NCBI GenBank assembly: GCA_003225075.1
Contig: QIAP01000041.1
Span: 24,069-88,068 of the forward strand
From: Acidobacteriota bacterium
GTDB taxonomy: Bacteria > Acidobacteriota > Terriglobia > Terriglobales > Acidobacteriaceae
Direction of reading: 5' to 3'
DNA length: 64,000 nt
A program made the translations under genes and the position numbers. The stretch's first letter is position 1; each line of letters starts with the position of its first letter. Positions 43,885 through 46,572 of this stretch are shown here, one piece after another. The notes under the pieces were generated by a model. That model made no database searches. It was not told where the DNA came from and was given only the letters and a program-made list of their open reading frames with translations.

Positions 43885-44460
43885 CTAGCGGCGGCTCTTC
43901 CCTGAAACTGCTTTAAAGGTCATCTCCGCAGCTCGGCTTCGTGTCGATCCTTTCCAGGCAAAAAACAACTCGGAATAGCTCTGCGTGATGTAAAGGCGAC
44001 GGTCGATGCCCAGTAGCTTGGCGGTGTGGTCAATCCAGCGCGGGGGGCCTTCAATCTCTCCGAAAATCCCAATAGGAGTTTCATCAATGACCACATGCCC
44101 TTTTCCATCGCTCCATTCTGCCCTGAACTTCTCATACCGAAACACAGGCTCGAATCCCAAAGATTTGAGGATCCTCTCCATTTTCCCGCCGTCAGCAACC
44201 TTGGTCTCGATCTCCTCGCGTGATTTATGACGTCCCGCGGCGCCTTTCGCCTTATAAGTGAGCAACCATGCCTTCCCATATTTGCGCAGTCGCAAAAGCT
44301 CTCCGCGTTTGCGAAGTTTGTAACCGGGCAGATCGTAGAGCGTATTCATCTCGTGGGTGCGCGGGGTCACCAGCCGAAAGTTTGCGGCTCGCAGCTTCCA
44401 AGTGAGTGCCCGCAGGTTCTGCACCCGGAATTTGATTTCAACTTCTTTCTTGGACCCCAT
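43885..44460 (-). CDS. CYTH-domain protein (class IV adenylate cyclase/triphosphatase-like)
   Basis: From the chosen start the protein has 191 residues. The signature EVEIKF (ExExK) lies at residues 6-11, and further charged strands (LRLRKYG, LTYKAKG, EEIETKV, RYEKFRAEW, VVIDETPIGIFGEIEG) form the tunnel that binds triphosphate and metal. CYTH proteins are triphosphatases or CyaB-like cyclases, and which applies here is not clear. I chose the ATG at 44460 because the signature follows directly; 14 further codons upstream look unrelated. It lies 65 bp downstream of the extended DedA-rhodanese frame. Confidence 0.85.
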   Translation of the reverse strand: MGSKKEVEIKFRVQNLRALTWKLRAANFRLVTPRTHEMNTLYDLPGYKLRKRGELLRLRKYGKAWLLTYKAKGAAGRHKSREEIETKVADGGKMERILKSLGFEPVFRYEKFRAEWSDGKGHVVIDETPIGIFGEIEGPPRWIDHTAKLLGIDRRLYITQSYSELFFAWKGSTRSRAAEMTFKAVSGKSRR

Positions 44461-44524
44461 TTGAAAGAGTATATGGGAGGGACGAGAGACGACGTTTCTC
44501 ACGGCTGCGATCTGCTAGCTCCAT

Positions 44525-45496
44525 CTACGTAAATGTTGGCAGCTTCACCAGGTCGTCGAGGGGCACGATCTCGAGCGGATTCCCAGCGTCGCGCCATGCC
44601 CGCAAACCACCGGCGATTACGAACGCGTTGAATCCCTGTTCCCGCAGTAGATGCGCCACCCGGGCGCTCGTGGCTTCGCGGGCTCAAGTACAGTAAAGAT
44701 AAATCTCGCGGTCCTTGGGCAGACGTTTTATTTCTTCCAGCAGGTTGTTAGGTTCAATTCGGATGGACCCTTTAATGCGTGAAGCATCGGCATCGTAATA
44801 ACCGTGACTGCGGACATCCACTAACAATATATTGCTCGCATCCTTCGCGGTCAGTCGCCGAGCGACTTCCTGTACCGGTACTCGTGGGACGATTCGGTAG
44901 AGCCGATATTTTCGGTAAATCCATATGCGGTATACGACGTATGCCGCAATCCCAAGCGCCACCACCATCTCCATCGCGTGCCCCGCCGACGCGATGCTGT
45001 GCGTGATGGTCCGAAGAAAATCGCTGAAGGCGAATCCCAGAGCACCGTACGCCAATACGTAAAGGGATGCCCCGGCGAGGTCGAATTGCAAGAACTGCTG
45101 CGGCCGCATTTTCATGCTGCCCGCGAGCGGCGGGGCCATGGTATTGATGCCGGGGATAAATTTGGCGAGCACCAGGGTCATCTTGCCGCGCCGATAGAAA
45201 GACTCTGCCGAGCGCAGAATGCAACTCTCAGGATTAACCGAAAGCCGGCAGAGAAGGCCCAGCAAACCCCAGCCAGTGTAACGGCCAACCAGAAAAAGAA
45301 TCGAATCGCCCAGTAATATCGCCACCACCGACACTCCGATGGCGACGAAGGGATTCAACTTGCCATAAGCGCACGCCGCTCCCGCCGCCAGCAATGCCAA
45401 TGCCGCTGGCATGGGAAAGCCAACCGCTTCCAGGAACGCGATCATCCCCAGCAGACTGTATCCGTGCCGCGCAATCAATGCAGACAGATCATCCAT
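44525..45496 (-). CDS. DedA-family membrane protein fused to rhodanese, probable selenoprotein (in-frame TGA at 44684-44686)
   Basis: Residues 1-200 form a DedA/VTT membrane domain (FLEAVGFPMPAALALL, then GINTMAPPLAGSMKM). Residues 212-323 form a rhodanese (NILLVDVRSHGYYDADASRI). The frame meets TGA at codon 271, right after YLYCT in the active-site loop. Reading through gives 52 more residues that are unmistakably rhodanese (REATSARVAHLLREQGF, then IAGGLRAWRDAGNP), ending at a TAG at 44525. Relatives known to me carry Cys at the TGA position (CTC in place of CT-TGA). With a SECIS-like hairpin next to it, selenocysteine is the simplest reading, giving a Cys-Thr-Sec motif. A fresh nonsense mutation or sequencing error is the alternative. 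Confidence 0.75.
44653..44667 (-). promoter_or_regulatory. Candidate bacterial SECIS element
   Basis: On the minus strand, 16 bases after the TGA codon, GCGCC pairs with GGCGC around the loop CGGGT. The loop starts 21 bases after the TGA and has G as its second base, both within the published consensus for bacterial SECIS elements. A competing fold pairs GCCAC with GTGGC (44674-44655) around a 10-nt loop beginning with G. Either would suit SelB. Confidence 0.5.
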
Positions 45497-45582
45497 ATAT
45501 GACTAAGCTTGGATTCCGAACAATAACAAACGGGCGCGCCCACGCGGTCCAGCGCGGACATAATTGTGTTTGAGGATTGGGC

Positions 45583-46572
45583 TCACTTTTCCCGCGCCAC
45601 TACAAACTCGGGAGCCCACAACAGCGCTCGCTTAAACTCAGAATCAGGAAAAGTACAAATTGCTTGGCGTGCTGATTCGGCGTAATCGGCTGCACGCGCC
45701 AAGGCAAATTCGAGTGATCCATAGCGGGTCAGAATATCCAAAATCTGGGCGTGACTGACGCCATTGAAGGCGCGATCGCGAAGTACAGCCTCGATCCGGT
45801 ATTTCTCCTCCGGTGTACAGCTTTCAAGCGCATGGATTACCGCCATCGTGGCTTTACCTTCCCGTAGATCGCTGGCCACGGGTTTGCCCAGCACGTTTTC
45901 AGACGCGGTCAAATCAAGCACGTCATCCACTATCTGGAATGCCATCCCCAGATCGTGTCCGTATTTTCCCAGGCTCTCTTCCTGCTCGGCGCTCGCCCCC
46001 CCGAGAATGCCTCCCATCCTCATGCAGACTGAAAATAGACAAGCTGTCTTACGATAAATCAGGTCAAAGTGCTCAGCCAGCGTGATCAATTTCCCCAGTT
46101 TTTCCATTTGCAGCAGTTCGCCTTCGACCATCTGCTGGGTCAACTCAATCAAAACATCCAGCACCCGGAAATTCCGCTCCTGCACCGCAATCTTGAACGC
46201 CTGCATGTAGAGCCAGTCGCCCGCCAGAACGCACTTCGAATTTCCCCATTGAGTGTTGGCGGCGGGGCGCCCACGACGGGTCTGAGCCTCATCAATGATG
46301 TCATCGTGCACCAGGGTGGCGGTGTGAATGATCTCCACCACCGCTCCCAGGCGGATGGCTCCGCGTCCCTGGTAATCGAATAGTTTTGAGGAGAGCAGAA
46401 GCAGCGCCGGCCGAATACGCTTGCCGCCGCCCGCGCGCAAGTACTCGCCAATCTCGGTGATCGCCGGAACGTCTGAAACCGTGTCACGGCCAAACTCACG
46501 CTCGATCGCCGCGAGATCATCGCGCAGCAGTTCGAAAACTTCTTTACCGTAAATGGCAGTGGATGCGCTCAA
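45583..46572 (-). CDS. Polyprenyl diphosphate synthase
   Basis: This 329-residue trans-prenyltransferase has the first aspartate-rich motif DDIIDEAQTRRGRPA, the second DDVLD with a downstream GKPVASDLREGKAT, and the GGKRIRPALLLLSS N-terminal region. It makes a long-chain prenyl diphosphate from FPP and IPP, probably the side chain of menaquinone or ubiquinone. The residues before the first motif do not allow a safe guess of chain length. It lies between yajQ and the DedA-rhodanese gene, all on the minus strand with gaps of 50-90 bp. Confidence 0.9.
   Translation of the reverse strand: MSASTAIYGKEVFELLRDDLAAIEREFGRDTVSDVPAITEIGEYLRAGGGKRIRPALLLLSSKLFDYQGRGAIRLGAVVEIIHTATLVHDDIIDEAQTRRGRPAANTQWGNSKCVLAGDWLYMQAFKIAVQERNFRVLDVLIELTQQMVEGELLQMEKLGKLITLAEHFDLIYRKTACLFSVCMRMGGILGGASAEQEESLGKYGHDLGMAFQIVDDVLDLTASENVLGKPVASDLREGKATMAVIHALESCTPEEKYRIEAVLRDRAFNGVSHAQILDILTRYGSLEFALARAADYAESARQAICTFPDSEFKRALLWAPEFVVAREK

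Follow-up and report, generated by a model that had tools for sequence, protein, structure and literature searches.

The 64,000-nucleotide stretch analysed here (the window), from an Acidobacteriota genome that falls among those of soil Acidobacteria, carries on its minus strand a gene (44525..45496) for a membrane protein of the DedA (VTT) family fused to a rhodanese domain, the reading frame of which contains an in-frame TGA (44684..44686). We regard it as very nearly certain, from comparison with related genes, that this TGA is decoded as selenocysteine (Sec), because at this place the relatives examined show TGA too or else a cysteine codon, and the TGA forms share a hairpin just behind it. 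The complete picture, in which hairpin-directed insertion would place Sec271 within a 323-residue, membrane-anchored DedA-rhodanese possessing a Cys269-Sec271 redox centre, is in our judgement probable.

The in-frame TGA and its counterparts in relatives

The frame begins with an ATG at 45496 and comprises 270 sense codons, the TGA immediately after the residues YLYCT, a further 52 sense codons and a TAG stop (44527-44525), as the initial annotation of this DNA had correctly described in coordinates, lengths and motif. Its statement that read-through yields rhodanese residues is borne out by a match to Pfam Rhodanese (PF00581) over residues 214-303 (44588..44857) that spans the TGA and scores 49.9 bits against a cut-off of 22.2, and by a fold search over residues 202-314 that identifies a rhodanese fold. 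The N-terminal part contains a VTT/DedA membrane domain (Pfam VTT_dom) at residues 33-154 (45035..45400). Automatic annotation had been expected to report a truncated protein of 270 residues, and 40 of the best 120 of 6954 matching database proteins do end precisely at this codon, after YC[TSAN]; two of these 40 rows, with source '-', are the window's own protein or close to it.

Of 399 genomes of the class that were searched, 264 gave matches, of which only the best are listed, and 70 loci were followed at codon level, a non-random sample made up of 30 given as loci and 40 picked down the match list. The column of residue 271 holds TGA at 38 of these loci, TGC or TGT at 32 and no other codon, i.e. 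an in-frame UGA where homologues have Cys, a pattern by which bacterial selenoproteins are recognised, so that the proposal that this column would be confined to Cys and Sec holds at 70/70 loci. Close relatives have the same TGA and no unrelated stop codons, and none of the 38 TGA loci contains a second in-frame TGA inside the aligned protein. Cys269 (44690..44692), the predicted partner of Sec271 in a C-T-U motif, is present at every one of the 70 loci, as is the C-x-U/C motif that characterises the NCBIfam family NF041203. To judge from this column, with TGA in 38 relatives and TGC/TGT in the other 32, the position of the TGA is not a matter of chance.

In a tree of 131 proteins (99 with Sec, 61 of them rows from named genomes, and 32 with Cys), the Sec/Cys states require at least ten changes, of which at least five are forced by starred branches; the tree was built by a 'quick' method and is unrooted, so that gain and loss of Sec are indistinguishable in it. 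The window protein clusters with sequences of Acidobacteriaceae and Terriglobia genomes. In one genome (G314) the fusion is present twice (L038, L088), once with Sec and once with Cys. The threonine codon preceding Sec (44687-44689 in the window) is ACT in 34/38 Sec forms and varied in Cys forms, where the commonest codon is ACC (10/32); in these sequences the bias towards ACT is one of codon context before UGA.

The SECIS-like hairpin and the selenocysteine machinery

Bacterial selenocysteine insertion sequences (SECIS) are hairpins that lie shortly 3' of the UGA and carry a G at one of the first two loop positions. A predicted hairpin of this kind lies at 44653..44667 (minus strand), 16 nucleotides behind the TGA, and consists of a 5' arm (44667-44663, GCGCC), a loop (44662-44658, CGGGT) and a 3' arm (44657-44653, GGCGC). 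All 38 TGA forms preserve both the five base pairs and a G in the second loop position, compared with 4/32 Cys forms that have the five pairs, three of these four with the loop G (Fisher p ~1e-15 for the hairpin, the sequences being related and hence not independent). Codons +6, +7, +9 and +10 each have a fixed third base throughout the TGA forms, whereas the Cys forms vary there. Two Cys forms, L051 and L055, keep the stem exactly, the latter without the loop G; these stems may be fossils of a recent Sec-to-Cys change.

This comparison was extended by a pattern scan of named genomes, which gave at least 118 stretches, of which the 80 listed were analysed and assigned to the family with a hidden Markov model (HMM) built from a 68-row family alignment. 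The scan pattern required a TGA, so these loci are uninformative on the ratio of Sec to Cys forms, and ends before the hairpin. Amongst the 80 stretches, 79 are family members, including at least 61 full-length fusions by the length limits set; the remaining one, L126, was rejected as a chance pattern match by the HMM. Pooling the 38 loci of the class with 78 of the named-genome loci (L156, too short, being left out) gave, after removal of duplicates, several of which were shared between the two sets, 96 distinct sequences that include a few stand-alone rhodaneses. All five pairs are formed in 90/96, and in the other six it is the lowest part of the stem that lacks one or two pairs; every sequence (96/96) has G as its second loop base. 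With one arm displaced by one to three bases, no sequence (0/96) forms all five pairs. Every pair is changed on both sides in at least one sequence, three of the five in a single sequence only.

The genome of origin (4.79 Mb, 97.6% complete) contains the complete set of genes by which the initial annotation had proposed to check its reading: SelA (446 bits), SelB (369 bits, cut-off 242), SelD (350 bits; L021, G000:C227:44343-45317) and a tRNA-Sec (70 bits) with anticodon TCA. The selD gene itself has one in-frame TGA near its N-terminus, in the context AAG-U-AS, and SelD is probably a selenoprotein too. Together with the Cys/TGA-only column and the hairpin, these genes support the earlier prediction that the UGA encodes selenocysteine. 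Across the class, SelB exceeds its cut-off in 36/38 Sec-form genomes and in 24/43 Cys-form genomes, 13 of these 43 being classed solely by the absence of a stop inside the match in the genome search. SelA is over its cut-off in one of 13 selB-less Cys-form genomes checked (G347), in which the selB match breaks off close to the end of a contig.

Loop chemistry, membrane cysteines and competing readings

In classical thiosulfate sulfurtransferases of the GlpE type the loop comprises six residues, among them a single catalytic Cys and conserved Gly/Arg. The loop of the fusion family, C-x-[CU]-x-x-[ED]-A-T-S, is two residues longer than this general motif and is without the conserved Gly, and Arg is found at position 273 in 29/68 alignment rows. 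Profile alignments to five rhodanese domains with a loop Cys place residue 271 on that Cys in three instances (6mxv domain 1, 3iwh and 1yt8 domain 2) and residue 269, with a gap behind it, in two (6mxv domain 2 and 1yt8 domain 4). Sec271 rather than Cys269 may accordingly occupy the place of the catalytic cysteine; of the initial annotation's placing of Sec two residues after the catalytic Cys, the spacing between Cys269 and Sec271 stands and the identification of Cys269 as catalytic is uncertain.

The membrane part contributes two further cysteines, Cys83 (45248..45250) and Cys92 (45221..45223), which are invariant in the family alignment (68/68 rows), at the 70 codon-level loci and in the 61 listed Sec loci from named genomes (61/61), and which fall in columns without Cys in the three other DedA proteins of the genome. 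By eye, both are kept, along with the CxC motif, in homologues of about 30% identity from Cupriavidus metallidurans and Paraburkholderia. The portions of PMC10127716 available tie undecaprenyl-phosphate flipping by DedA proteins to two acids and two bases; in the 68 rows, with the columns assigned by aligning them to a DedA paralogue of this genome (L094), the first acid is E/D in 58 and the first base K/R in all 68, the second acid is present in one and the second base in none. The fusion has the VTT domain in common with the UptA/DedA undecaprenyl-phosphate flippases, and mostly their first acid and first base, but differs in the second of each and scores 36.7 and 28.6 bits where the UptA cut-offs stand at 300 and 250; the family does not display the flippase residue set. 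From the conserved residues we infer that the DedA-rhodanese may constitute a thiol/selenol relay.

In the mechanism that we propose, the conserved RNA hairpin would direct Sec insertion, and Sec271, which probably takes the position of the catalytic cysteine of rhodaneses, would act as the nucleophile on sulfane sulfur (persulfide or polysulfide) or on an electrophile. Cys269 would then resolve the product as an Se-S bond, to be re-reduced either by Cys83 and Cys92 of the DedA part, through a putative contact, or by a cytosolic thiol. With such an Se-S cycle the protein would work as a reductase or a relay and not as a classical thiosulfate:cyanide sulfurtransferase, and we advance the redox-relay role as a serious but tentative possibility. 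A more ambitious version, in which DedA is a transmembrane chalcogen relay and Cys83, Cys92, Cys269 and Sec271 pass electrons or sulfane sulfur/selenium between the membrane or periplasm and the cytosol, seems distinctly unlikely; if true, a DsbD-like job would fall to proteins that are otherwise regarded as lipid flippases, and selenium would tune the cytosolic end.

The strongest alternative accepts Sec insertion but makes the protein a sulfur- or selenium-transferase, i.e. a persulfide or perselenide carrier that might, for example, feed SelD, rather than a reductase. The rhodanese fold is consistent with this, as are a link between DedA of Ralstonia (now Cupriavidus) metallidurans CH34 and selenite (Ledgham 2005, as cited in the accessible text of PMC8679861) and the presence of a four-cysteine DedA-rhodanese homologue in a C. 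metallidurans record (L216 2995-3969), perhaps the same gene as the CH34 dedA of that work. The departures of the loop from the classical form in length, Gly and Arg273 nevertheless argue against a transferase, and a second invariant chalcogen beside the nucleophile favours Se-S resolution, so that we hold the alternative to be rather doubtful. Reading of the TGA as another amino acid, or its reassignment throughout the genome, would be consistent with a frame open on both sides of the codon, but is very improbable: TGA is a normal stop elsewhere, for instance in the upstream polyprenyl synthase gene (45583-45585), which led us to reject a change of genetic code, and the specific hairpin, the alternation with Cys and the TCA anticodon of the tRNA-Sec all point to Sec in particular. 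Least credible of all is an ordinary stop, arising by sequencing error, pseudogene formation or true truncation with the downstream similarity as a relic, for which the 270-residue database form speaks but which we reject on the same TGA in 38/70 relatives, the conserved downstream frame and rhodanese residues (with an open frame behind the TGA in the 79 listed named loci too, TGA being part of the search pattern), a hairpin constrained at silent sites and the Sec genes of the genome.

A number of observations weigh against the reading of the gene as a hairpin-directed redox selenoprotein. Sec insertion is a prediction from sequence. A search of Rfam over 44400-45600 found no SECIS there, and folding the single sequence gave nothing out of the ordinary (z -0.63, 48/200 shuffles folding at least equally well), so the case for the hairpin rests on comparison, and the related sequences on which that support is founded are not independent. 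SelB falls below its cut-off in two of the 38 Sec-form genomes, G386 and G164, where SelA (552 bits with its neighbour, and 583 bits, respectively) and tRNA-Sec (69 and 70.8 bits) are found, and the presence of selB in 24/43 Cys-form genomes indicates that a genome with the machinery need not have the Sec form. Six Cys-form genomes with neither selA nor selB over the cut-offs give tRNA-Sec matches of 47.6-51.5 bits against a gathering score of 47; the specificity of the Rfam model for tRNA-Sec is partial. On the chemical side, the alignments are divided (3 vs 2) over whether residue 271 or residue 269 holds the catalytic place. The gene order of the window's clade (MetG-TatD-YajQ-polyprenyl synthase-gene-CYTH-SecA) was rejected as functional evidence, being housekeeping synteny.

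Distribution, known relatives and significance

Among the 79 listed family loci, 64 have record titles naming Acidobacteriota, and other records with the fusion carry the labels Rokubacteria (7), Nitrospirae (L162), Myxococcota (L147) and Nevskia (L122), while a Gammaproteobacteria record (L152) has, among the matches listed, part of it; the phylum labels of metagenome-assembled genomes may be wrong. The same loci include rhodanese-only CxU frames (L131, L155, L166, L174 and, by its HMM range, L175), of which L131 passes the NF041203 cut-off of 115 with 153.6 bits and L155 fails it with 104.8.

Clustering the neighbours of the 79 listed loci by BLAST identified, in clades other than that of the window and in a small number of loci each, MarR (5), YceI-like (5), nitroreductase (4) and RND pump (3) genes, named from Pfam matches of one or two examples each, or by eye for the YceI-like group; MarR and pirin genes lie near L168. 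In one such clade, five loci (L098, L129, L133, L161 and L171) have different combinations of MarR, YceI-like and nitroreductase genes close to the Sec gene. These combinations perhaps represent a regulated stress cluster, and the neighbours outside the window's clade fit, weakly, a role in redox or electrophile stress.

Rhodaneses of the CxU type are already catalogued. The 2026 catalogue PMC13188914, in the sections available, describes five rhodanese selenoprotein forms, including the CxU form 3 (NF041203) and TsoB, and the CxU form also features in the accessible part of PMC9312934; the initial annotation's description of a new selenoprotein therefore applies to the DedA-fused form only. 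NF041203 (rhodanese_LYCAU, 'rhodanese-related (seleno)protein') is likewise a C-x-U/C rhodanese and is the best NCBIfam match of the rhodanese part, but models a stand-alone domain of 126 positions, whereas the domain here is fused to DedA and scores 79 bits, below the cut-off of 115. TsoB (NF045694), described in the catalogue's available sections as rhodanese/DsbD fusion-like, is by its name also a selenium rhodanese with a membrane redox domain, but has a UxxxxU motif with two Sec, and the fusion protein has no NF045694 match at E <= 0.001. The main text of PMC13188914, as available, has no occurrence of DedA or VTT. DedA-rhodanese fusions (PF09335-PF00581) with the same two domains are recorded within COG0586 in PMC10127716, the accessible text of which mentions no selenocysteine in them and calls the tie of rhodanese to undecaprenyl phosphate unclear. 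In the literature covered, no paper was found that joins selenoprotein, DedA and rhodanese; the CxU rhodanese and the DedA-rhodanese fusion are each known, and the selenium form of the fusion appears to be undescribed in the literature searched.

With a selenium-containing DedA-rhodanese, the known selenoproteome gains a membrane-protein architecture. This Sec form is common in Acidobacteriota, turns up also in genomes with the labels Rokubacteria, Nitrospirota and Myxococcota, and often has database copies cut at the Sec codon. The hitherto puzzling DedA-rhodanese fusion thereby gains a testable chemistry, and the joint conservation of four thiol/selenol residues suggests that redox or sulfur work may be done by some DedA proteins instead of, or besides, lipid flipping.
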